Below, in pieces: positions 16,093 through 26,704 of a stretch of 27,184 bases of DNA. Both the position numbers and the translations under genes were made by a program. The notes beneath the pieces are model-generated. The model made no database searches. It was not told the DNA's origin and saw only the letters and a program-made list of their open reading frames with translations. Numbering within the stretch: position 1 is the stretch's first letter; every line of letters starts with the position of its first letter. Origin of the DNA: a virus; the IMG/VR virus record IMGVR_UViG_3300035670_001064, positions 1 through 27,184 of that record. The stretch is one strand, 5' to 3'.

Positions 16093-16132
16093 TACTGATT
16101 TTTGCATATTTCATAATTTTAATTGTTAACAG

Positions 16133-16158
16133 AACCCTTACTTCGGTAGGGGTTTTTT
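16133..16158 (+). terminator. strong intrinsic terminator at end of late region
   Basis: Nine base pairs (AACCCTTAC with GTAGGGGTT, one T-G wobble) closed by a TTCG tetraloop, followed by six T. It separates the late structural/lysis operon from the early region. Together with the promoter at 16064-16092 it may end a short RNA. Confidence 0.9.
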
Positions 16159-16220: not shown

Positions 16221-16253
16221 TGTAACCTTATATTAAAAAGTATAGTATATTTG
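16221..16253 (+). promoter_or_regulatory. early promoter with conserved leader (copy 1)
   Basis: TTATATTAAAAAGTATAG followed by TATATTTG (16246-16253) and a 24-base leader containing ACAATTAAA up to the ATG at 16278. The -33 element is weak (ATG at 16220-16222, 23-base spacer). The TTATATTAAAAAG box and leader are shared with promoters at 20180, 20833 and 23774, marking them as one co-regulated set. It drives the block of small genes 16278-17333. Confidence 0.75.
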
Positions 16254-16277
16254 TCAAAACAATTAAATATTTAAACT

Positions 16278-16424
16278 ATGAAAAATTACTTTTACGACTT
16301 GTTAGACCAAGTTACACCAGCGAACGATGAGCATAAGGACATTTTAAGGTGCTTTTTAGGCTTTTTCCCGCTACTTCTTGTAACGATTGGCGCATTGTAT
16401 TCACTTTTAATTTTTATGCGATGA
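16278..16424 (+). CDS. small membrane protein, first gene of early block
   Basis: 48 residues from ATG right after the conserved early leader. A soluble, acidic first half (MKNYFYDLLDQVTPANDEHK) precedes one clear membrane span (CFLGFFPLLLVTIGALYSLL) and a short basic end (IFMR). Its position as first gene under a strong early promoter suggests a host-takeover or membrane-acting product, an inference. The stop overlaps the next ATG (ATGA), so the next gene is coupled to it. Confidence 0.6.
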   Translation: MKNYFYDLLDQVTPANDEHKDILRCFLGFFPLLLVTIGALYSLLIFMR

Positions 16425-16591
16425 GAACGAAGAAAAACACGAAACCAACTTTTCTTGAAATAATTAACTATTGGCACGATCAAAAGAAAAAAAACTTAGG
16501 TAGGTTTAATATGGAGCATTATTTAAGAGTTTGCCAGGCAAAAGCATACAATGTAAGATTTGATGAACACAATAATATGATAAGAATATGA
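16421..16591 (+). CDS. small basic early protein, unknown
   Basis: 56 residues from the ATG that overlaps the previous stop (ATGA). An upstream in-frame extension to 16349 exists but would run through the previous gene, so it was not chosen. The protein is basic at the start (MRTKKNTKPTFLEIINYWHD, then KKKNLGRF) and aromatic-rich. I do not recognise it. The stop overlaps the next ATG by four bases. Confidence 0.55.
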   Translation: MRTKKNTKPTFLEIINYWHDQKKKNLGRFNMEHYLRVCQAKAYNVRFDEHNNMIRI

Positions 16592-16818
16592 AACAGTCAG
16601 CAGTAGAATGGTTGGTTGAAAAATTAGATAACAACTTAGATATAAATCATAGTTGGAGAACACGTCAATATATTAAACAAGCCAAAGAAATGGAGAGAGA
16701 GCAGATAGTTATAGCAGAAATAGAAACGTTAAGAGTAATAGAAAAATATGGAATTTCAAGTATAGAGCCATTAATAAATGAATTAAAAAATCAAATAGAA
16801 ACCTTTAAATCAGAATAG
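16588..16818 (+). CDS. early protein, paralogue of the gene at 21418
   Basis: 76 residues. It begins MKQSAVEWLVEKLDNN, has a KEMEREQIV-like helix (residues about 32-45) and ends ETFKSE. This layout, a VEWL start followed by QAKEMEKEQI, is a widespread short family in Bacteroidota phages with unknown function. The gene at 21418-21663 has the same start pattern and identical last six residues. Its final 21 coding bases lie in a 28-bp sequence repeated exactly at the end of that paralogue. Confidence 0.65.
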   Translation: MKQSAVEWLVEKLDNNLDINHSWRTRQYIKQAKEMEREQIVIAEIETLRVIEKYGISSIEPLINELKNQIETFKSE

Positions 16819-16825
16819 AATGAAA
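16798..16825 (+). repeat. 28-bp exact direct repeat, copy 1
   Basis: A 28-base sequence beginning GAAACCTTTAAATC covers the end of the ETFKSE-ending gene, its stop, and the start of the next gene (TAGAATGAAA). It recurs exactly at 21643-21670. It marks a duplicated or recombined gene end. Confidence 0.9.
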
Positions 16826-17035
16826 GCAAAAGAAGTTACAGCAGTGTTCGAATGGACGAATGAATCCGTCTTATTGCAGCAAATAGAACGTTTAAAGGAA
16901 TTACTTTTACAAGGTAAGGAATATCACGAAGATGTTTACGATAAAATGAATCTCCAGTTTATGCAGAAATACGAAAGAATGCGTAGCTTTAAAGTAATTA
17001 ATCATAACGAAATAATTATAAAATCAAACGTATGA
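16820..17035 (+). CDS. small early protein with coiled-coil helix, unknown
   Basis: 71 residues, mostly helical with a heptad-like core (VLLQQIERLKELLLQGKEYH). It has no cysteines or membrane segment and is near neutral. It starts one base after the preceding stop and ends ATGA-coupled to the next gene. A protein-protein interaction role is plausible, with nothing more to say. Confidence 0.55.
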   Translation: MKAKEVTAVFEWTNESVLLQQIERLKELLLQGKEYHEDVYDKMNLQFMQKYERMRSFKVINHNEIIIKSNV

Positions 17036-17220
17036 ACCAAGACCCTAAAAAGTTCGCTGTTGAATTAGTAGATAAGTTCTATGTAGGACTGCATATTAAA
17101 GACTATAAGACGGCACGTAACTGCGCTATCTTTACCTGTCATCAGCGTATCCAGGAAACGCTTACATTAACACGAATTAAGTTTTTAAAAGAAGTGATAA
17201 CCGAAATTGAAAAACTATGA
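17032..17220 (+). CDS. small helical early protein, unknown
   Basis: 62 residues, helical, starting MNQDPKKFAVELVDKFYVGL with a repeated AELVDKF / KTARNCAIFTCHQRIQETL pattern and an end KFLKEVITEIEKL. Short proteins with a LVDKF...A..CA......I.E......YW..V..EI..L layout are frequent in Bacteroidota phages and prophages with unknown role. It is coupled to both neighbours by overlaps (ATGA at each end). Confidence 0.6.
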   Translation: MNQDPKKFAVELVDKFYVGLHIKDYKTARNCAIFTCHQRIQETLTLTRIKFLKEVITEIEKL

Positions 17221-17333
17221 AAGTTCTTGTATTATACAATGGTAAGCAAAAGATTGACTATCGTAAAATAAAGCAATGGAGGGTTCGTGTTAACATAGCA
17301 AATAATTTTTATAAGAATTTTGAGTTAGATTAA
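17217..17333 (+). CDS. very small basic protein, 38 residues, unknown
   Basis: ATG overlaps the previous stop (ATGA), and the frame gives MKVLVLYNGKQKIDYRKIKQ then WRVRVNIANNFYKNFELD. It is short, basic and aromatic, without a recognisable domain. Support rests on coupling and on filling the gap up to the next promoter. Its stop overlaps the promoter spacer region. Confidence 0.4.
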   Translation: MKVLVLYNGKQKIDYRKIKQWRVRVNIANNFYKNFELD

Positions 17334-17352
17334 ATAATTATTTTTATATTTG
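17320..17352 (+). promoter_or_regulatory. promoter for the 17355-17448 RNA / replication operon
   Basis: TTG, a 22-base spacer and TATATTTG (17345-17352) fit the Bacteroidota consensus. Unlike the four early promoters it lacks the TTATATTAAAAAG box and ACAATTAAAA leader. It stands about 115 bases before the first ATG, so the transcript would have a long structured leader or be a separate RNA. Confidence 0.65.
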
Positions 17353-17354
17353 CA

Positions 17355-17448
17355 TACGGACTCCTTCGACACTATAAGTCCTAACGGTATTATTACCCTT
17401 GTTTTTGAAGTAGAGGTCGAAGGCTACGGATAAAGCGAGGGTTTTTTT
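17355..17448 (+). ncRNA. candidate structured leader RNA with terminator-like end
   Basis: About 95 bases, no ORF, directly after a promoter and ending in seven T. Two perfect or near-perfect pairings are visible: CCTTCGAC (17363-17370) with GTCGAAGG (17416-17423), and ACCCTTG (17395-17401) with CGAGGGT (17436-17442, one wobble). Their order (1, 2, 1', 2') would make an H-type pseudoknot, or two alternative folds with the second acting as terminator stem. A TACGGA repeat flanks the first helix (17355 and 17425). It could be an attenuator of the replication operon or a small RNA. I cannot match it to a named RNA family. Confidence 0.5.
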
Positions 17449-17467
17449 ATTTATAAAATTTTTAGGT

Positions 17468-17638
17468 ATGAAACTAACACAAACATTTGAATTTGATAAT
17501 TGCGAAATATCAATTATTATTTATGAAAACGATTCAATAGTTACAATTGACATTGGAGATTCTGAAGTTGATTTATCATTAGAAGAATTTTACAAATTTA
17601 TTACTATGCTTGAAAGAATTAAACCAGTAAAAAAATGA
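17468..17638 (+). CDS. small acidic protein before replication genes, unknown
   Basis: 56 residues from the first ATG after the structured leader. It is acidic and beta-rich (MKLTQTFEFDNCEISIIIYE, then VTIDIGDSEVDLSLEEFYKF) with a basic end (KPVKK). I do not recognise the family. Its stop overlaps the ATG of the DUF6291-type gene (ATGA), so it is likely the first gene of the replication operon. Confidence 0.55.
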   Translation: MKLTQTFEFDNCEISIIIYENDSIVTIDIGDSEVDLSLEEFYKFITMLERIKPVKK

Positions 17639-18210
17639 GAGAAGGATTTAATTTTTATAGAAGTTATTGGGATGTAGCAAACGAATTAAATGATAAAGAT
17701 AGATTAGCTTTTTACGATGCTTTAATGAAACGTCAATTTACAGGAATTGAAACGGATTTAGAAGGAATGAGTAAGTTCGCTTATTTATCTCAAAAGCATT
17801 CTATTGATAGGCAGGTTAAAGGATATGAAGATAAAACTAAAAAGACTTTATTAAACCCTAACCAAGACCCTACGCAAGGGGGTAGGCAAGGGGGTTCGGT
17901 ACACCCTTCGGTACAAGTAAAAGAGAAAGAGAAAGTAAAAGAGAAAGTAATAAATATAGAAGAGCGCAAATTAAAATTTGCAGACGCGCTTAAACCTTTT
18001 TTAGATGAGTATGGTAGAGACATGTTAAACGACTTTTATTTTTACTGGACTGAACACGGAGAGAATGATAAAAAACTTAGATTTGAAAAAGAAAAAACAT
18101 TCGGTATATCTCAAAGGTTAAGAACTTGGTTTAGTAGAAACCCTAAACAATACAAAAAAGAAGAAACCGACCACTTAGTAGAATACGTTAACAAACAATT
18201 AGGATTATGA
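17635..18210 (+). CDS. DUF6291-type replication-associated protein
   Basis: 191 residues. Residues about 1-65 (REGFNFYRSYWDVANELNDK, DRLAFYDALMKRQFTG) match DUF6291, an N-terminal domain of phage and mobile-element replication proteins. A Gln/Gly/Lys-rich linker follows (about 75-105), then a C-terminal domain (FADALKPFLDEYGRDMLNDF, FYFYWTEHGE, TWFSRNPKQYKKEE) typical of helicase-loader or initiator-like proteins in Bacteroidota phages. The gene directly downstream encodes a RecA/DnaB-like ATPase, matching a loader-helicase pair. Function is inferred from architecture and context. Confidence 0.65.
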   Translation: MREGFNFYRSYWDVANELNDKDRLAFYDALMKRQFTGIETDLEGMSKFAYLSQKHSIDRQVKGYEDKTKKTLLNPNQDPTQGGRQGGSVHPSVQVKEKEKVKEKVINIEERKLKFADALKPFLDEYGRDMLNDFYFYWTEHGENDKKLRFEKEKTFGISQRLRTWFSRNPKQYKKEETDHLVEYVNKQLGL

Positions 18211-19151
18211 AAGGCGATGCGGTTCAATACTTGCTTGATTATAAACACGGCAAAATAAAAAAGGGTTACGGAATAGATTGCTTTTTAGATGAACATCTTA
18301 GATTTAAACGTAAACAGCTAAACATAATTCTTGGACACGATAACGTAGGTAAGACTTATTGGATTAATTGGTATTTTTTGACGTTGGCAGTAAAACACGA
18401 ATTAAGATTTTGTATTTGGAGTGGTGAAAACCAAAAAGGACAAATCTTACGAGATATGATTCAAATGTATTTAGGTCAAAAGTTTTCAGAAATTGACGAT
18501 AAAAAGATATTAAGCACAGCTACATTTTTGGAGCAGTATTTTGATTTCATTCCAAACGATAAACTTTATACACCTGCGGATATTTTAAAGCTGTTTAAAG
18601 AAAGCGAATGCGATGCAGGATTAATAGACCCTTTTACTGGACTTGACCGACCTATGACGTTTGAAGGTAACTATCAATTTTTGAATCAGGCAAGGCAATT
18701 TGTTAATGAATCAGGAATGACAATTTACATAAACACGCACCCAAATAGCGAAAGCGGTCGAAGTGGCAACTTATATCCTGAAAATCATCAATGGAAAGGA
18801 CATCTTAAACCACCTTTAAAAGACCACGTTGAGGGTGGCAAGGCTTTTTTAAATAGATGTGATGATATGTTTGTTATTCATAGGCTAATAAAACACGAAA
18901 CAATGAAATATTACACTATGGTAAACGTAGAAAAAATAAAAGATATGGATACGGGCGGAATGCATACGAGATTAGATGAGCCAGTATTATGTGAGTTTAA
19001 CAACGGATTAGGCTTTAAAATAAATTCAGTTGACCCATTACGAAAACACGAACCAATAAAACCTAAACAACTTCCTTTGATTCAACCAGATATAGTTAAC
19101 GGAAAAGAATTACTTTCGTTTAGTGAAAAGTTAAAGCAAAATCCTTTTTGA
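18207..19151 (+). CDS. RecA/DnaB-like ATPase, putative replicative helicase
   Basis: 314 residues. Walker A is GHDNVGKT (residues 43-50), and a Walker B-like strand is CDAGLIDPFTGLD (about 135-147). IYINTHPN (about 172-179) fits the sensor/motif H3 region, and a late HVEGGKAFLNRCDDMFVIHR segment resembles DnaB-type domains. It lacks the N-terminal domain of full DnaB, like RepA or short phage helicases. It probably unwinds DNA at the phage origin with the preceding DUF6291-type protein. The start overlaps that gene by four bases. Confidence 0.75.
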   Translation: MKGDAVQYLLDYKHGKIKKGYGIDCFLDEHLRFKRKQLNIILGHDNVGKTYWINWYFLTLAVKHELRFCIWSGENQKGQILRDMIQMYLGQKFSEIDDKKILSTATFLEQYFDFIPNDKLYTPADILKLFKESECDAGLIDPFTGLDRPMTFEGNYQFLNQARQFVNESGMTIYINTHPNSESGRSGNLYPENHQWKGHLKPPLKDHVEGGKAFLNRCDDMFVIHRLIKHETMKYYTMVNVEKIKDMDTGGMHTRLDEPVLCEFNNGLGFKINSVDPLRKHEPIKPKQLPLIQPDIVNGKELLSFSEKLKQNPF

Positions 19152-19179
19152 ATATTATAACAAGCAAAAACACGAATAA

Positions 19180-19473
19180 ATGGACGAATTGAATATTATA
19201 TCAGCCAAAGTAGGAATACAAACTACTTATTTAAAAGTTAAAATAAGCTTAGAAGAAATAAAGACGAACCACCCTAATAGAAAAGACATAATCGATTCAA
19301 TGGAAAGAACATTAGCGGACCTTCAAGAAATTAGTTTAGTTTATTCAACGATGGAAAAGGAATATAGAGCAGCTTTACAACAAAACTTTAGACTTGAAAG
19401 ATTGCTTCAGGAAGAAAAATTTAAAAACAAAGATTTGCAAAGCCAATTAAATTTTAAAGATATAACCTTATGA
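19180..19473 (+). CDS. coiled-coil early protein, unknown
   Basis: 97 residues, helical throughout, with a late coiled coil (YRAALQQNFRLERLLQEEKF). It is slightly acidic, without Cys clusters or membrane segments. It begins 28 bases after the helicase, behind a gap that contains one AAACACGA word, and ends ATGA-coupled to the HTH gene. A helper role in replication is possible by location alone. Confidence 0.55.
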   Translation: MDELNIISAKVGIQTTYLKVKISLEEIKTNHPNRKDIIDSMERTLADLQEISLVYSTMEKEYRAALQQNFRLERLLQEEKFKNKDLQSQLNFKDITL

Positions 19474-19661
19474 ACCAGTTAAAAATGTATCGTGTTTTTA
19501 AAGTTTACGATTTACTTCAAGAACGACCAAGAACAATTCCAACCATTTGTAGATATTTGAACGTAAGCGAAAGGACAGTATATCGTTATTTTGATTTATT
19601 TAAAAACTTAGGATTCGTAGTTGAAAAACACGAATTTAATAAATACCAAATAAAAAAATGA
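19470..19661 (+). CDS. small helix-turn-helix protein (HTH_11/DeoR-like)
   Basis: 63 residues, nearly all a winged-helix DNA-binding fold: YDLLQERPRTIPTICRYLNV, then SERTVYRYFDLFKNLGFVVE and a wing-like KHEFNKYQIKK. The pattern IPTICRYLNVSERTVYRYF is a standard HTH with recognition helix RTVYRYFDLF. It could regulate the replication operon or act at the origin. It is coupled by four-base overlaps on both sides. Confidence 0.75.
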   Translation: MNQLKMYRVFKVYDLLQERPRTIPTICRYLNVSERTVYRYFDLFKNLGFVVEKHEFNKYQIKK

Positions 19662-20182
19662 GGTGTAAAAACTGCAAAGAGAAGTTTGAGCCTATCCGCT
19701 TTAATATGAAATACTGCTTAAAAGATGAGTGCGTTCGTGTTTGGGTAGAATCGGAAAAGGCTAAGACTTGGAAAAAGACGAAAGCTAAAATGAAAAACGA
19801 TTTAGAGACTGTTCAGGAATTAATTAAAGCTACTCAAATAATATTTAACAAGTATATCAGATTACGAGATAGAGGTCAAGTTTGTATAAGTTGCCAAAAG
19901 AAACTCAAAGAAGGTAACGTGGATGCTGGGCATATGTGGAGCGCAGGAGGTCATTCAAATTTAAGATTTAACGAATTTAATGTAAACGCTCAATGTTCAA
20001 GACCTTGCAATAAAGATAAAGCAGGTGACATAAATAATTATCGATTAGGGTTTGTAGAAAGATATGGAATAGAAAAATTAAACGAAATTGATTCCTTAGC
20101 AAAGATTGAAAGAAAGTTTAGTAAAGAAGAACTAAAAGAATTAATACAGATTTATAAAAAAAAGATAAAAGATATAAGTTAA
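19658..20182 (+). CDS. ninG: NinG/Rap-like recombination endonuclease
   Basis: 174 residues. N-terminal Cys pairs (CKNC, then YCLKDEC) form a zinc-binding start, followed by a helical linker, a second Cys pair (CISCQKKL), DAGHMWSAGGHSNLRFNEFN and NVNAQCSRPCNKDKAG. This Cys/His layout is that of NinG (Rap), a structure-specific nuclease of lambda-like phages that resolves recombination branches. Its length is close to that of lambda NinG (about 200). It sits ahead of the ERF/exonuclease operon, consistent with a recombination role. Confidence 0.8.
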   Translation: MRCKNCKEKFEPIRFNMKYCLKDECVRVWVESEKAKTWKKTKAKMKNDLETVQELIKATQIIFNKYIRLRDRGQVCISCQKKLKEGNVDAGHMWSAGGHSNLRFNEFNVNAQCSRPCNKDKAGDINNYRLGFVERYGIEKLNEIDSLAKIERKFSKEELKELIQIYKKKIKDIS

Positions 20183-20206
20183 TATTAAAAAATATAATTA
20201 CTTTTG
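20180..20206 (+). promoter_or_regulatory. early promoter with conserved leader (copy 2)
   Basis: TTAATATTAAAAA box followed by TACTTTTG (20199-20206) and a 23-base leader containing CAACAATTAAAACTTAAATT directly before the ATG at 20230. No clear TTG -33 element. It belongs to the set at 16221, 20833 and 23774, and probably drives the HTH-like gene at 20230. Confidence 0.7.
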
Positions 20207-20229
20207 AACCAACAATTAAAACTTAAATT

Positions 20230-20589
20230 ATGATAACAAATTTTGAAACCATTACTCACGAACTAACAGATGAGGAATTAAACTTAGTTCCTGTTATAGT
20301 TCACAGCTTCCGATTCTATAAAAAGGATAACCCTATAAAAGCTGAATTGATAGTTAAACGGATGAACGAATACTTGGAAAAAAACGGATCAAAAGTTAAA
20401 ATGACTGCTCCGCGTTTACGTAAGATAGTTAACTACATTCGAACAAACGGCATAATACCGCTTATTGCCACGTCTAACGGATATTTTACAAGCGATTGTA
20501 AGCAAACTATCCAAGAGCAAATACAAAGCCTTCAGGAACGAGCAAACAGCATTGAACGTTGTGCAACAGGATTAAAGAAATTTTTGTAA
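20230..20589 (+). CDS. winged-helix-like phage regulator, unknown
   Basis: 119 residues. LTDEELNLVPVIVHSFRFYK, an IKAELIVKRMNEYL helix, and APRLRKIVNYIRTNGIIPLI resemble a winged-helix DNA-binding core; the last third is SNGYFTSDCKQTIQEQIQSL, ERANSIERCATGLKKFL. I recall this layout, including the ending helix with S-IE-CA-GL--F, as common in Bacteroidota phages near replication and recombination genes. A regulatory or replication-accessory role is likely. It has its own conserved early promoter. Confidence 0.6.
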   Translation: MITNFETITHELTDEELNLVPVIVHSFRFYKKDNPIKAELIVKRMNEYLEKNGSKVKMTAPRLRKIVNYIRTNGIIPLIATSNGYFTSDCKQTIQEQIQSLQERANSIERCATGLKKFL

Positions 20590-20591
20590 AA

Positions 20592-20816
20592 ATGAGAATA
20601 TATATAATTAAACATAAAGGTGCTAATATTTGGCAAAATACAGTTACCGAACAAAGAATTAAAATTAATAATGAAATTGAAATTTTAGCAGGTTATAGTT
20701 TTTTTAGAAAAAAAGATGCTTTAAAATATTTAAAAACATTTAAATACAGCGAATTTTTTGAAGTTGTTGGGTGTACTGTTGATAAAACAAATGCGGATAA
20801 CAGAAAAAAAGTATAA
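20592..20816 (+). CDS. small basic early protein, unknown
   Basis: 74 residues from the ATG two bases after the preceding stop. An in-frame upstream start at 20559 lies inside the previous gene and is less likely. The protein is Lys/Ile-rich (MRIYIIKHKGANIWQNTVTE, then SFFRKKDALKYLKTFKYSEF) with no recognised domain. It is very A/T-rich, more so than its neighbours. Confidence 0.5.
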   Translation: MRIYIIKHKGANIWQNTVTEQRIKINNEIEILAGYSFFRKKDALKYLKTFKYSEFFEVVGCTVDKTNADNRKKV

Positions 20817-20832
20817 TTTTTTTTTGATTCCA

Positions 20833-20862
20833 TTGTTATATTAAAAAGAATAGTTATATTTG
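20833..20862 (+). promoter_or_regulatory. early promoter with conserved leader (copy 3)
   Basis: TTG (20833-20835), a 19-base spacer containing TTATATTAAAAAG, then TATATTTG (20855-20862), and a 22-base leader with CAAACAATTAAAATTCAAATT before the ATG at 20885. It is the clearest match to the Bacteroidota consensus in the set and drives the ERF/exonuclease operon up to 23675. Confidence 0.85.
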
Positions 20863-20884
20863 TCAAACAATTAAAATTCAAATT

Positions 20885-21421
20885 ATGAAAAAGTTATTAG
20901 AAATTCAGGCAGAATTAAAATGTCCAAAAGGAAGTTTAAACAAGTTCGGTAATTACAAGTATCGTAGTGCTGAGCAAATTTTAGAATCAGCAAAACCTAT
21001 CTTAGTAAAACACGAATCTACTTTGGTTCTTTCAGATACTATTGTAGAGGTAGGTAGTAAGCTATTTTTAAAAGCAACAGCAACATTAAAATGCGGAACT
21101 GACATCGTAGAGGTTTATGGTTGGGCAGAACTTGGTGAACACAAGGGAATGTCAAGTGAACAATGTACCGGAACAGCATCCAGTTACGCACGTAAATACG
21201 CATTGAATGGTTTATTCTTAATCGACGAAACTGAAAGCGATCCCGATTCAAAAGATAACAAGAAAGAAGAACCCGTAAAGACGGAAAAAAAGCCTACAAT
21301 ACAAGGTGAACGATTCTTAAAAGCAATAGAAGCAATTAGAGCAGGTGAATTTACAGCCGAAGAACTACAAGCAAAGTTCGAATTAAATGAAGTTCAACAA
21401 AAAGCATTGTTACTGATATGA
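20885..21421 (+). CDS. erf: ERF family single-strand annealing protein
   Basis: 178 residues. FGNYKYRSAEQILESAKPIL, then a beta region and SSEQCTGTASSYARKYALNG with LFLIDETESDPD are the hallmarks of the ERF family, which anneals single-stranded DNA and helps recombination or genome circularisation. A lysine/glutamate-rich linker and a small helical C-terminal domain (AIEAIRAGEFTAEELQAKF) follow. A lambda-type exonuclease gene lies one gene downstream, giving the usual annealing-protein/exonuclease pair. It is first in an operon with a strong early promoter. Confidence 0.9.
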   Translation: MKKLLEIQAELKCPKGSLNKFGNYKYRSAEQILESAKPILVKHESTLVLSDTIVEVGSKLFLKATATLKCGTDIVEVYGWAELGEHKGMSSEQCTGTASSYARKYALNGLFLIDETESDPDSKDNKKEEPVKTEKKPTIQGERFLKAIEAIRAGEFTAEELQAKFELNEVQQKALLLI

Positions 21422-21663
21422 AAAAGACAGCTGTAGAGTACTTGATAAATGAATTATTTACAGTACACGATGAAAACTTTGATTTTAACCCAATATTTGA
21501 ACAAGCTAAAATAATGGAAGAAAAACAATTAGTTATGGCGGCAAACACTTCTTTAAAAGAAGCATATGAAGCAGGTCAAAAATCAATGTATTGTGGTTGT
21601 TATTCAATAAGCGATTGTTCTTCGTTTAATGATTGGTTTTATGAAACCTTTAAATCAGAATAG
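21418..21663 (+). CDS. small protein, paralogue of the gene at 16588
   Basis: 81 residues. It starts MKKTAVEYLINELFTV, continues with an FEQAKIMEEKQLVMAANTSL helix, and ends in a Cys-containing segment (KSMYCGCYSISDCSSFNDWF) plus ETFKSE. The start and last six residues match the protein at 16588-16818; the middle differs. The start overlaps the ERF stop by four bases. Function is unknown, though the family is very common in Bacteroidota phages. Confidence 0.65.
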   Translation: MKKTAVEYLINELFTVHDENFDFNPIFEQAKIMEEKQLVMAANTSLKEAYEAGQKSMYCGCYSISDCSSFNDWFYETFKSE

Positions 21664-21670
21664 AATGAAA
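21643..21670 (+). repeat. 28-bp exact direct repeat, copy 2
   Basis: Identical to 16798-16825. It covers the end of the ETFKSE gene, its stop, and the start codon region (TAGAATGAAA) of the exonuclease gene. The next gene after each copy is unrelated. Confidence 0.9.
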
Positions 21671-22336
21671 ATACGTTGTTCACAAATAGGTAAATTAATG
21701 ACTTCCCCTAAAACAAAAGGGGAGGTCTTATCTAAAACTACAAAGACCTACATTCAAGAACTTGCAATCGAACATAAATACGGAATTCGTAAAGAGTTTT
21801 GGAGTAGATACACGGATAAAGGCAACGAAGTAGAAGACGAAGGTATCGAATTGGTTAACGATGTTCTTGATTTGGGATTCATCTATAAAAACGATGAGAA
21901 TCTAACCAACGATTATTTAACTGGTACACCTGACGTAAACACGAATGAAGTTCTTTTAGATGTAAAATGTTCTTGGGATGCAACTACGTTTCCGTTTTTT
22001 GAAACCGAATGCCCTAATAAAGATTATTACTACCAGCTTCAGGGTTATATGTGGCTAACAGGAAAAGATGAAGCGTTACTTTGTTACTGCTTAGTAAATA
22101 CACCGTTTCAAATAGTTGAGGACGAGGTAAGGCGCGAACATTGGAAGCAAGGTTTAATAGATGAAAGTTTAGATGTAAGAGATTTTGTGCAGTCGAAACA
22201 TAACTTTGACCACATACCAAAAGAAAAGCGCTTAAAAGTCTTTAAAATAGCAAAAGACGAAAGCGTAATAGAACAAATTAAAGAACGAATAGAGTTAGCA
22301 AGAGAATATTATAACCAATTAATAACTGAATTATGA
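21665..22336 (+). CDS. YqaJ/lambda-type recombination exonuclease
   Basis: 223 residues from the ATG just after the preceding stop. A longer frame to 21629 overlaps the upstream gene and was not chosen. It has the PD-(D/E)XK layout of phage 5'-3' exonucleases: KGNEVEDEGIEL (residues about 52-63), LTGTPDVNTNEVLLDVKCSW (85-104) with Asp90, Asp99 and Lys101, and a Q-motif YYYQLQGYMWL (121-131). It makes single-stranded ends on which ERF acts. Gene order ERF, small protein, exonuclease supports the pairing. Confidence 0.8.
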   Translation: MKIRCSQIGKLMTSPKTKGEVLSKTTKTYIQELAIEHKYGIRKEFWSRYTDKGNEVEDEGIELVNDVLDLGFIYKNDENLTNDYLTGTPDVNTNEVLLDVKCSWDATTFPFFETECPNKDYYYQLQGYMWLTGKDEALLCYCLVNTPFQIVEDEVRREHWKQGLIDESLDVRDFVQSKHNFDHIPKEKRLKVFKIAKDESVIEQIKERIELAREYYNQLITEL

Positions 22337-22593
22337 AAAAAGCAATAATAATATTTACAAGTGCTTTCATAATAGAGATATCCTCAACGTTCTACATTAA
22401 ATATGTAAGCGACCAAAACTTTATAGGAATGATTTTCTTTGCTGGTATTGGTCCATTTTTAGGTTTGCCGTTTTTAAATTATGTTATAGAAAGTGAAGAT
22501 TTTAAGGAACGACTACAAATGGCTTTTTATTTGTCATTGGGTTACGTAGTTGGTTCTATGTTTGTGTTTTATGTTTTAAATAAATTATTATGA
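22333..22593 (+). CDS. small membrane protein of recombination operon, unknown
   Basis: 86 residues with three hydrophobic segments: residues about 3-22 (AIIIFTSAFIIEISSTFYI), 30-50 (IGMIFFAGIGPFLGLPFLNY) and 64-84 (MAFYLSLGYVVGSMFVFYVL). I recall similar proteins with IFxSAFxIEIxSTFYI and FxGPFLGLPF phrases in many Bacteroidota phages, with unknown function. It lies mid-operon between exonuclease and small ORFs, so it is unlikely to be the holin. The start overlaps the exonuclease stop. Confidence 0.65.
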   Translation: MKKAIIIFTSAFIIEISSTFYIKYVSDQNFIGMIFFAGIGPFLGLPFLNYVIESEDFKERLQMAFYLSLGYVVGSMFVFYVLNKLL

Positions 22594-22775
22594 AAGAAGA
22601 ATTAAAAATTATGGGTTACTATAAAAACGTAACAAGAGACCAAGTAGTACAAATCAAAGATTTTAAAAAAGACAAACTTTGGTACGAAGTAATTAGACAA
22701 TACGAAGCGAACCCTATAACAGAGTTTTGCTGTTCAGTTGAAAGATTTAAACGATTATATATTAAAACAAAGTAA
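22590..22775 (+). CDS. small basic protein, unknown
   Basis: 61 residues, starting [20 protein letters not shown]; the internal Met8 is an alternative start. It has a short [20 protein letters not shown] motif with two Cys and a basic C-terminal end. No domain recognised. It is ATGA-coupled to the membrane protein gene and ends two bases before the next start. Confidence 0.5.
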
Positions 22776-22777
22776 AA

Positions 22778-23215
22778 ATGGAATATATAGATATAAAAGA
22801 ATTAAAAGGTAAAACTTTATTATATATTCGTGTAGATGACGAATTAGATGAAATTTTATTTACTTGTAATGACGGAAGTCAATATAAAATGTATCACGAA
22901 CAAGATTGTTGCGAAGCTGTTACAATTGATGATATTAATGGAGATTTGAATGATTTAATAGGCAGTCCAATTTTAATAGCTGAAGAACTAAGTAATGATG
23001 ATTTTGTAAAAAACTTTGAAGAATCTTTTAAATTAGAAGAAGGTGCGAACCCAAAGTTTGAATCTAATTATAAAAATGAGTTTGGAGAAAGTAAACCTGA
23101 ATCTTATACGTGGACTTTTTATAAATTAGCAACTATAAAAGGATATGTAGATATTCGTTGGTTTGGGGATAGTAATGGTTATTATTCGGAATCAGTAGAA
23201 TTTGTAAAACTTTAA
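22778..23215 (+). CDS. DUF7448-like phage protein
   Basis: 145 residues. The central segment [20 protein letters not shown], then [15 protein letters not shown], is a highly characteristic motif of DUF7448, a phage protein family with unknown role. The Cys-Cys-Glu, Asp and His residues could form a metal site. The rest is acidic and beta-rich, ending with [18 protein letters not shown]. It belongs to the recombination operon; its function cannot be told from sequence. Confidence 0.65.
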
Positions 23216-23226
23216 ATTAAATAAAA

Positions 23227-23475
23227 ATGGAAAATAGAGTCAATTCAGGAGCGTTATTTACTAACGACAAAAGAGAAAAGGAAACGCACCCACACTATCA
23301 AGGTAAGGCAACTATCGGTGGCGTAGAATATTATGTTAGCAGTTGGGTAAAAGACGGACAAAAAGGAAAGTTTCAAAGTTTAAGTTTTAAACCAGTTCAA
23401 GAACAAGCGAAACCAACAGGCGGAAAACCAAGTTATGGTAATAAAGATTTTGACGATTTTTTAGGTAGTCTATGA
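23227..23475 (+). CDS. SSB-like small DNA-binding protein (inferred)
   Basis: 82 residues. The core VNSGALFTNDKREKETHPHY, then GGVEYYVSSWVKDGQKGKFQ and SLSFKP, forms short beta strands like DUF736-type or OB-fold proteins. The C-terminal 11 residues (NKDFDDFLGSL) are acidic with a hydrophobic tip, like the SSB tail that recruits repair proteins. Position in the ERF/exonuclease operon fits single-strand binding. The assignment is inference, as no full SSB domain is seen. It overlaps the next gene by four bases. Confidence 0.5.
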   Translation: MENRVNSGALFTNDKREKETHPHYQGKATIGGVEYYVSSWVKDGQKGKFQSLSFKPVQEQAKPTGGKPSYGNKDFDDFLGSL

Positions 23476-23675
23476 AACAACAAGCAAAGGTTTTAAGCGA
23501 AGCAAATGAACTTACAAGGTTAATGATTAGACACTATTTACAAAAACACGAATTAAGCCTAAATGCTTTTTCTAAGTTAGTAGATATTAAACAACCTAAC
23601 CTTCATAAGTTTCTAAATGGAAGTAATCTATCAAGTAAGTCAATCGAAAAGTTAGGTGAATTTTTTAGCAAATAA
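23472..23675 (+). CDS. small XRE-like helix-turn-helix regulator
   Basis: 67 residues: IRHYLQKHELSLNAFSKLVD, IKQPNLHKFLNG and SNLSSKSIEKLGEFF give a Cro/CI-type five-helix HTH with QPNLHKFLNG as recognition helix. It is too short for an added dimer domain. It is last in the recombination operon, just before a structured trailer and terminator, and probably controls early or middle promoters. It could be a Cro-like switch protein. Confidence 0.75.
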   Translation: MKQQAKVLSEANELTRLMIRHYLQKHELSLNAFSKLVDIKQPNLHKFLNGSNLSSKSIEKLGEFFSK

Positions 23676-23733
23676 ACTTGCTCTGGTTAATGGATTGTGA
23701 AACACGGTCGCCCACACTGTAGCAGGTCTTTTC
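23676..23733 (+). other. structured 3' trailer before terminator
   Basis: About 58 bases with no ORF. ACTTGCT (23676-23682) can pair with AGCAGGT (23721-23727, one wobble), enclosing a TGTG/CACA helix. It may be a stabilising 3' end or the body of a small RNA ending at the adjacent terminator. No promoter is seen directly before it. Confidence 0.3.
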
Positions 23734-23765
23734 AAGCGGAACGTAAAAAATTCCGCTTTTTTTTT
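23734..23765 (+). terminator. intrinsic terminator of recombination operon
   Basis: Perfect 8-bp stem AAGCGGAA / TTCCGCTT with a 9-base A-rich loop and a run of eight T. It ends the operon begun at 20885 and separates it from the last early promoter. Confidence 0.9.
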
Positions 23766-23773
23766 AAATTATT

Positions 23774-23803
23774 TTGTAGTTATATTAAAAAGTATTATAT
23801 TTG
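23774..23803 (+). promoter_or_regulatory. early promoter with conserved leader (copy 4)
   Basis: TTG (23774-23776), a 19-base spacer containing TTATATTAAAAAGTAT, then TATATTTG (23796-23803), and a 23-base leader with CAACAATTAAAACTAAAAATT before the ATG at 23827. It drives the operon with the sigma-like factor, methyltransferase and, possibly, the terminase genes. Confidence 0.85.
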
Positions 23804-23826
23804 TTCAACAATTAAAACTAAAAATT

Positions 23827-24183: not shown

Positions 24184-24380
24184 GAATATTGTTAATACTT
24201 TTATTTCCTTTTATAATAGCCTTATTCGTTTTGGATAGGGCTGTTTTGCTTTTTGCGTGGAACATACCAAGTATTACGATTCATAAATGGTTGTTTAACG
24301 AATACGAAATGGGTAAAAGCTTAGTTCGTGTTATTATAGGAATGATTGTTGTTTTAATGCTTATTTTAATTGGACTCTAA
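24180..24380 (+). CDS. small membrane protein with GTG start, unknown
   Basis: 66 residues from GTG, which overlaps the preceding TGA (GTGA). Two hydrophobic spans are clear: residues about 2-28 (ILLILLFPFIIALFVLDRAV) and 49-66 (VRVIIGMIVVLMLILIGL). No family recognised. Its end overlaps the sigma-like gene by 11 bases. GTG was kept because no ATG occurs before the first span and coupling favours it. Confidence 0.55.
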   Translation: MRILLILLFPFIIALFVLDRAVLLFAWNIPSITIHKWLFNEYEMGKSLVRVIIGMIVVLMLILIGL

Positions 24381-24912
24381 TCAATTTCTGAATGACTTGT
24401 ATGTTGAACATAAACACTGGATTAAGGTAGTTAAATCGTTTGGCGAATATAGTTTAGCTGAAGATATAGTTCAAGAAATGTATTTAAAGTTAGCAAAACA
24501 CGAAAACAAAGAAAGATTTTATCGAAATGGAGTTGTTTATAAGGGGTTTATTTGGATTGTTTTGAGAAATATGTATTACGACTTCGAAAAAAGTAAGCAC
24601 AAGCTACAAAAAGTCGATATAACGGAGGCAATACAATTAATAGATGAAAGTGATCCAAACGAAAAGACGGAAGCACAAATAGAATTAGAAAACAAAATAA
24701 ATAAGACTGTAGATAGTTGGCACTGGTATGACAAAATGCTTTATGAACTTTACCGCGATTCAGGAATGAGTACACGCCAAATAGAAAAACATACTGGAAT
24801 CAGTTTTAAATCGGTATGGCAGACGTTAAAGTATTGTAAGGATAGTTTAAAAATAGAAGTCGGAGAGCATTACGAGGACTACAAAAACGAGGATTACGAA
24901 TTAATAAAATAA
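24370..24912 (+). CDS. sigma-70-like transcription factor (short)
   Basis: 180 residues from TTG, the only plausible start: it overlaps the preceding gene, and the first in-frame ATG lies inside region 2. FGEYSLAEDIVQEMYLKLAK (residues about 24-43) is a region 2 core, followed by KGFIWIVLRNMYYDFEKSKH (about 58-77). YDKMLYELYRDSGMSTRQIE, then KHTGISFKSVWQTLKYCKDS (about 120-160), is a region 4-like HTH. It has the two-domain size of ECF sigma factors. It may direct RNA polymerase to late promoters, an inference; none were recognised in the late region. Confidence 0.75.
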   Translation: MDSNQFLNDLYVEHKHWIKVVKSFGEYSLAEDIVQEMYLKLAKHENKERFYRNGVVYKGFIWIVLRNMYYDFEKSKHKLQKVDITEAIQLIDESDPNEKTEAQIELENKINKTVDSWHWYDKMLYELYRDSGMSTRQIEKHTGISFKSVWQTLKYCKDSLKIEVGEHYEDYKNEDYELIK

Positions 24913-25516: not shown

Positions 25517-26704
25517 ATGCAAATAGTAAAAATAAGCGAGGTTAAACTAAACCCAAAGAACCCAAGAATAATAAAAGACGGAAAATTTCAAAAATTAGTT
25601 AAGTCTATCCAAGAGTTTCCTGATATGCTAAATAAACGCCCGTTAGTGGTTTTTACTGACGTTGATAATAAATACGTTGTCTTAGGTGGTAATATGCGCT
25701 TAAAAGCCTGTAAAGAGATAGGATTAAAAGAAATACCTATTATAGTAGCTGACGAATGGACTGAGGAACAAAAAAACGAATTCTTAATAAAAGATAATGT
25801 AGGTTTTGGAGAATGGGATTGGGATAGTTTAGCAAATGAATGGGACGCTGAAAAGTTAGACGATTGGGGCTTGGATTTACCAGTTGATTTAAGCGTTCAA
25901 GAAGAACTTGAAGCTGAAGAAGATGACTTTGATGTTCCTGAAGGTGGTATTGAAACGGATATTGTTTTAGGCGATTTATTCGAAATAGGTGAACATCGTT
26001 TACTTTGTGGAGATAGTACTCAAACCGATACATTTGAAAAGTTAATGCAAGGAGAGTTAGCTGATATGGTTGTAACCGATCCACCTTATAATGTTGCTTA
26101 TGAAGGTGGAACAAAAGAAAAGTTAACTATTGAAAATGACTCAATGAGTAATGATGACTTTTATAAATTCCTTTACGATTTTTACACAGCACTTTCGACA
26201 GCAGTAAAAAAAGGGGGAGCAATTTATGTTTGGCATGCTTCTTCAGAAATAATAAACTTTGCTAAAGCATTTGTTGATTCAGGATGGTTATTAAAACAGC
26301 AGTTGATTTGGGTTAAAAGTTCAATGGTAATGGGTAGACAAGATTACCAATGGAAACACGAACCTTGCTTATATGGTTGGTTAAAAGGAGATAGCCATAA
26401 ATGGTATTCAGATAGAAAACAAACAACAGTTATTGAATGGGATAAACCACAAAGAAATGGAGAACATCCTACAATGAAGCCAATAGGTTTATTTTCTTAT
26501 CAAATAGAAAACTCTTCTAAAATAGGAGATATTATAATAGATGCTTTTGGAGGTAGTGGAACAACTATGGTGGCTTGTGAACAAATAAAACGCAAAGCAA
26601 GAGTTATTGAATACGACCCTAAGTATTGCCAAGTTATAATTGATAGGATGAAAAAACTTGACCCGAGTTTAGTTATTAAGAAGAATGGAGTTGAAATTAA
26701 ATAA
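25517..26704 (+). CDS. ParB-domain/DNA methyltransferase fusion (N4/N6 type)
   Basis: 395 residues. Residues 1-90 form a ParB/Srx-like nuclease-fold domain (ISEVKLNPKNPRIIKDGKFQ, VVLGGNMRLKACKEIGLKEI), with GGNMR in place of the usual GGHRR. Residues about 145-380 form a DNA methyltransferase: TDPPY catalytic motif (187-191), HPTMKPIGL (317-325) and SAM-binding FGGSGTT (344-350). DPPY before FxGxG places it in the beta class. No restriction enzyme is next to it, so it is probably an orphan that protects phage DNA or marks packaging sites. A Glu/Asp-rich linker joins the domains. Confidence 0.85.
   Translation: MQIVKISEVKLNPKNPRIIKDGKFQKLVKSIQEFPDMLNKRPLVVFTDVDNKYVVLGGNMRLKACKEIGLKEIPIIVADEWTEEQKNEFLIKDNVGFGEWDWDSLANEWDAEKLDDWGLDLPVDLSVQEELEAEEDDFDVPEGGIETDIVLGDLFEIGEHRLLCGDSTQTDTFEKLMQGELADMVVTDPPYNVAYEGGTKEKLTIENDSMSNDDFYKFLYDFYTALSTAVKKGGAIYVWHASSEIINFAKAFVDSGWLLKQQLIWVKSSMVMGRQDYQWKHEPCLYGWLKGDSHKWYSDRKQTTVIEWDKPQRNGEHPTMKPIGLFSYQIENSSKIGDIIIDAFGGSGTTMVACEQIKRKARVIEYDPKYCQVIIDRMKKLDPSLVIKKNGVEIK

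Follow-up and report, generated by a model that had tools for sequence, protein, structure and literature searches.

Control of several early promoters by a Cro-like protein is a known kind of phage regulation. One protein may also act at many short sites, as Gp71 does at the operator and stoperators of mycobacteriophage L5, which are numerous, asymmetric, and linked to lysogeny, and the middle promoters of T4 place a phage-specific box, the MotA box, upstream of a retained host -10-type element. Here, we describe four promoter modules in IMG/VR virus record IMGVR_UViG_3300035670_001064, an uncultured Flavobacterium-type phage; all 27,184 bases were analyzed and are called the window. Each module carries an imperfect 18-bp dyad in the spacer of a host-type promoter, and we propose that a small helix-turn-helix (HTH) protein encoded from position 23472 (gene 23472) is probably a Cro-like repressor for which these symmetric sites are operators, shutting off four operons, its own included, together.

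The arrangement resembles lambda Cro in that a small HTH protein of an early operon has likely operators overlapping early promoters, its own among them, and in that the sites are imperfect dyads with related half-sites. It differs in having one operator per promoter in four separate operons, all on one strand, with promoters of the Bacteroidota sigma-A type and operators predicted from sequence. No divergent CI gene or immunity region and no second repressor were seen in the window, a record that may be incomplete; thus, the system would be Cro-like in action rather than a lambdoid switch. As in L5, one phage protein would act at many similar short sites across the genome, but here there are four sites, all at promoters. 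As in T4, a phage-specific box lies upstream of a host-type -10/-7 element, but here the position and orientation of the box vary and our searches gave no sign that the candidate protein is MotA-like. Finally, compared with the Bacteroidota sigma-A promoter (TTG-N19-TAnnTTTG), the modules have the -7 element at all four sites and the -33 TTG with its 19-bp spacer at two, but add the conserved 18-bp dyad. Our literature searches turned up no report of such transcription control in phages of Flavobacterium or of other Bacteroidota, and no description of spacer operators in a Bacteroidota phage that change together with their protein.

Four promoter modules with a dyad in the spacer

The modules (M1 to M4) and the candidate repressor gene are as follows.

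16228..16245, + strand: M1 predicted operator dyad TTATATTAAAAAGTATAG, 24.0 bits, directly adjacent to the -7 box
16246..16253, + strand: M1 -7 element TATATTTG, no TTG at -33
16254..16277, + strand: M1 leader, +1 predicted near 16258 (from a box at -12 to -5, PMC9723704)
20180..20197, + strand: M2 predicted operator dyad TAATATTAAAAAATATAA, 18.4 bits, 1 bp upstream of the -7 box
20199..20206, + strand: M2 -7 element TACTTTTG, no TTG at -33
20207..20229, + strand: M2 leader AACCAACAATTAAAACTTAAATT
20833..20835, + strand: M3 -33 element TTG, spacer 19
20836..20853, + strand: M3 predicted operator dyad TTATATTAAAAAGAATAG, 23.6 bits, 1 bp upstream of the -7 box
20855..20862, + strand: M3 -7 element TATATTTG
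20863..20884, + strand: M3 leader TCAAACAATTAAAATTCAAATT
23472..23675, + strand: gene 23472, predicted 67-residue Cro/C1-type HTH protein, final gene of the M3 operon, proposed repressor
23774..23776, + strand: M4 -33 element TTG, spacer 19
23780..23797, + strand: M4 predicted operator dyad TTATATTAAAAAGTATTA, 18.4 bits, sharing 2 bp with the -7 box
23796..23803, + strand: M4 -7 element TATATTTG
23804..23826, + strand: M4 leader TTCAACAATTAAAACTAAAAATT

A first-pass annotation had placed TAnnTTTG boxes, each with an upstream box and a leader of 22 to 24 bases, at 16246, 20199, 20855, and 23796, and the sequence bears this out exactly. TAnnTTTG occurs 17 times on the + strand of the window and 14 times on the - strand, and is joined by box and leader at only these four. 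The upstream box TTATATTAAAAAG has just three exact matches in the window, at 16228, 20836, and 23780, M2 having the variant TTAATATTAAAAAA. From -7 box to ATG, the leaders measure 24, 23, 22, and 23 bases (M1 to M4), and all contain ACAATTAAA in the form (A)ACAATTAAA; the ending AAATT that the annotation gave for all four holds for M2 to M4, while M1 ends in TTTAAACT. Only two modules have the TTG with a 19-base spacer, at 20833 and at 23774, in agreement with the annotation's count of two.

To score the sites, we scanned the window with an 18-bp matrix trained on relatives. It gave the bit scores listed for M1 to M4 and no other site of 9 bits or more, and in 20 Markov-shuffled windows no site reached 15 bits with the same matrix. 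The four modules are real, far beyond chance. A scan for Escherichia coli-type promoters was uninformative (46 sites in the window versus 45.7 expected).

We fetched contigs of related phages without use of the motif, via the Erf protein and via the sigma-like protein encoded in the M4 operon. We examined 79 relatives upstream of erf, and the large majority retain the whole module. After deduplication, the TAnnTTTG sites of both sets comprise 159 with box, leader, and ATG, 21 with box and ATG without the leader, and 49 with leader and ATG without the box, several of the last being box variants. Relatives thus do not keep the -7 box alone, the outcome that the first-pass annotation had named as counting against its modules. 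Long contigs carry up to four such promoters each, and the first gene after the M2 module often differs.

Across these sites, the upstream box proves to be one arm of an imperfect 18-bp dyad, TTATWY-N6-RWATAR, which lies in the -33/-7 spacer and abuts or overlaps the -7 element. In the distinct 18-mers, the left half is TTATAT or CTATAT and the right half is the complement of TTATTC, CTATTC, TTATAT, CTATAT, or TTATAC, so that half-sites from one set (TTATAT, CTATAT, TTATTC) occur on either side. Pairing at the proposed center (0.70) is the highest of five centers tested, the next being 0.63. At M4, relatives carry the site forward, as a near-perfect palindrome (TTATATTAATTAATATAT), or reverse-complemented; the reverse-complemented sites score 15.5 bits on the reverse strand versus -1.8 forward (p about 0.0005 versus shuffles). 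M2 dyads, and almost every M3 dyad, are separated from the -7 box by a gap of +1; the gap ranges from 0 to 2 at M1 and takes the values -5, -2, or +1 at M4, so that the site overlaps or abuts the promoter throughout (+2 to -5), as Cro-type operators do. The three M4 gaps are three-base steps, in step with TTG/TAT repeats.

Because its orientation and its offset from the -7 element vary among relatives, we conclude from these alignments that the box is part of a predicted operator and not of the core promoter. Site identity that is kept while orientation and helical face change is as expected of a symmetric protein-binding site, and the operator role suggested by the first-pass annotation is strengthened accordingly. 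A search of 84,980 bacterial and archaeal genomes for the pattern of box, -7 box, and CAATTAA gave a single match, from a metagenome-assembled genome of Bacilli; the pattern is found in at least 119 viral stretches from a collection much smaller than the prokaryote set. By this measure, the full module is specific to the phage family and is not a host feature.

Association of the dyad with gene 23472

Homologues of gene 23472 are present in nearly all operator-bearing contigs that cover the gene's place. Conversely, where contigs were selected through the 23472 protein and had at least 3 kb upstream, the operator was found in 55 of 55; it lies 150 to 600 bp downstream of the 23472 homologue, the position of M4, in 66 of 70, and slightly further on in three of the other four. 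The type of protein and the type of site also go together. In contigs selected through the sigma-like protein, we found the type A operator with all 17 type A HTH proteins, with none of 21 of type C, and in none of 14 in which no homologue was detected. Phages with a diverged 23472 homologue have altered dyads: HTH subtype B1 goes with a TTATTC left half in six of seven M1 to M3 sites (TTATTCAATAAAGAATAG) versus 0 of 113 for type A, and in type C phages the spacer motifs are different ones, for example ATATTAA-N3-TTAATAT.

Similarly diverged phages in which no homologue was detected lack the operator, have other spacer sequences in their promoters, and carry another small open reading frame (ORF) directly after the same "DDLPF"-type gene. 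Profile comparison links ORFs in this slot to the 23472 family with probabilities of 91% and 76%, making them distantly HTH-like. A query with one such slot protein (from L333) returned four loci only, and the operator of that lineage is vague. A distant relative (L217) has its own repeated promoter-plus-leader module at 601, 2755, and 5883, with a different spacer and leader (TATATTTGCATATAACTAACTTAAAAA); these phages may repeat promoter modules as a rule.

The AlphaFold2 model of the 23472 protein, built with 18 aligned homologues, is a confident HTH-type bundle (predicted local distance difference test score 92.6), and its best PDB matches are the lambda-repressor-like proteins HipB, DdrO, SinR, CylR2, and C.Esp1396I (probability to 0.98, TMq to about 0.64). 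A homologue from a sister group scores 26.1 bits in Pfam, above the cut-off. The first-pass annotation had suggested one controlling protein next to the modules and had singled out the proteins starting at 23472 and 20230; of the two, only the former is a clear candidate, by the two-way association. We rejected protein 20230: it is missing from several operator-bearing phages, and a 70 to 80% identical homologue occurs in phages without the operator.

Repression weighed against other readings

We envisage each module as a host-type Bacteroidota promoter with an 18-bp operator set into its spacer, the downstream half touching or overlapping the -7 element. Protein 23472 would bind all four sites, we infer as a dimer, and block RNA polymerase, so that its accumulation would turn off the M1, M2, M3, and M4 operons together, as lambda Cro does. 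Gene 23472 lies within the M3 operon under its own predicted operator, and because it ends that operon, ahead of a terminator, repression would be self-limiting. The operon of the sigma-like protein (M4) would be among those turned off. We favor steric repression over activation because the site reaches the -7 element or overlaps it, on a helical face that varies.

Several observations weigh against this proposal. The dyad is imperfect and AT-rich, its pairing is 0.70 versus 0.67 expected from column composition, and columnwise covariation is weak because most dyad columns hardly vary; the case for a dyad therefore rests on inversion, half-site exchange, and the B1 variants. Types A, B, and C are clades, so that the association with gene 23472 is phylogenetically clustered and its counts are not independent; for that reason we regard it as a strong association and not as proof. 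Foldseek E-values for the 23472 model all exceed 0.1, a common outcome for chains this short, and its Pfam match to HTH_26 (20.5 bits) falls just under the cut-off of 22. Finally, M1 and M2 mostly lack a TTG at -33, which an activator could also explain, and we leave room for activation at these two.

Such an activator, 23472 or another phage protein, would bind the spacer and replace a weak -33 contact, in the way that MotA acts at T4 middle promoters or MerR-type proteins act in long spacers. The M1 and M2 promoters fit this idea, as few have a TTG at 19 in relatives either (3 of 17 and 3 of 23, respectively), yet the dyad gap is nearly fixed there. We nevertheless consider activation unlikely: M3 and M4 carry the TTG and the operator both, the M4 operator overlaps the -7 box, and protein 23472 is not MerR-like. 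The gap varies by 6 bp and the orientation flips at M4, where gaps of -5, -2, and +1 and inverted forms stand in place of the fixed spacing and orientation of a MotA-type box.

Alternatively, the modules could be recently duplicated promoter cassettes, homogenized by recombination, with a spacer merely inherited and no DNA-binding partner. Leaders and boxes are indeed very alike and AT-rich, and the phage group is mosaic. This account is very improbable given that the 19-bp spacer is conserved across relatives at 1.12 bits per column versus 0.21 further upstream, that the dyad survives inversion and half-site exchange, and that the association with 23472 runs both ways.

The regulated element could instead be the conserved 5' leader, as a signal that the four operons share at the level of translation or of the initial transcript; the first-pass annotation had considered a phage-specific translation enhancer. 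In Flavobacterium psychrophilum, the -7 box spans -12 to -5 (PMC9723704), which places +1 at (A)ACAATT, so that the mRNA probably begins with (A)ACAAUU, and such a start in the leader would suit a signal of this kind. So would the exact ACAATTAA, which goes beyond the adenine preference at -3 and -14 to -11 reported for F. johnsoniae (PMC6847099) and still stands ahead of erf in three relatives whose promoter is lost. However, the leader fits that host preference (of 178 distinct promoters, 163 have A at -3, 175 have it at -11, and 170 have it at -12), so that a dedicated enhancer is not needed; ACAATTAA precedes three ORFs in the unrelated Flavobacterium phage 11b too; and the spacer dyad would be left unexplained. 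We give a leader signal little credence and view the leader most plausibly as an ordinary, strong start region whose 5' end is short.

That the sigma-like protein uses the box as a -35 element of its own, so that the promoters would be sigma-switched, is scarcely credible and was rejected: its gene does lie within the M4 operon, but relatives with the same sigma gene (57 to 69% identity) lack the box, the -7 box remains host consensus, the box can be inverted, and the sigma would need to precede its own promoter. Repression by a Cro-like 23472 is the reading we prefer.

Genomic setting and significance

Plausible genes in the window all lie on the + strand, and the nearest cultured relatives are distant, among them Flavobacterium phages 11b and filifjonk and Nonlabens phage P12024L. 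Landmarks around the modules are listed below.

16131..16156, + strand: intrinsic terminator that ends the structural-gene region immediately upstream of M1
16278..16424, + strand: first ORF of the M1 operon, 48 residues, function unknown
20230..20589, + strand: first ORF of the M2 operon, phrog_2113, function unknown
20885..21421, + strand: first gene of the M3 operon, Erf-like single-stranded DNA annealing protein
23735..23765, + strand: terminator AGCGGAA-N9-TTCCGCT-T8 separating the M3 operon from M4, read directly in the sequence (its loop of 9 exceeds the limit of the terminator scan)
24370..24912, + strand: sigma-factor-like protein of the M4 operon (phrog_1740, E 2.8e-6; Pfam sigma-70 r2/r4 under cut-off)

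M4 begins a segment that encodes the sigma-like protein, a ParB/methyltransferase fusion (25517-26704, an N6/N4 DNA methyltransferase with a fused ParB N-terminal domain), and a DUF5681 protein, possibly the small terminase. The sigma-like gene lies near the DUF5681 gene; its sigma-70 r2/r4 matches are weak but consistent, and it is a possible late-gene switch. The structural-gene region has no operator site, and we saw no TAnnTTTG followed by an intergenic leader there; late genes are therefore probably transcribed by read-through from M4 or with the help of another factor. The small ORF at 20592-20816 looks like a recently transferred gene: it is 98 to 100% identical in protein sequence in a few otherwise divergent relatives (L235, L260, and L346), and most relatives lack it.

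Separately, positions 17345-17450 (+ strand) hold a candidate structured RNA of about 95 nucleotides, which has a TATATTTG promoter and a terminator of its own and lacks the operator. Its 59 distinct homologue sequences in the fetched loci show strong covariation (score 0.631 versus at most 0.170 when slid), with 91.7% of cells paired and 19 of 24 pairs changed on both sides, and the proposed structure includes an 8-bp loop-loop (kissing) helix, CCTTCGAC/GTCGAAGG. Against Rfam, this RNA had no match above threshold (best L10_leader, E 0.84), and a scan of the whole window gave none at the gathering threshold.

If repression by 23472 is true, it provides a named repressor with its 18-bp operator and four promoters, all directly testable in F. 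johnsoniae, together with a natural series of protein-operator pairs for studying change in DNA recognition, and it may yield small orthogonal repressors for a phylum in which genetic tools are few. More tentatively, one lytic group of Bacteroidota phages might keep a fixed slot for a fast-evolving Cro-like protein and three or four matching spacer operators that change together between lineages, and so possess mutually independent early-gene timers without a lysogeny repressor, although we hold this wider view to be possible rather than probable.

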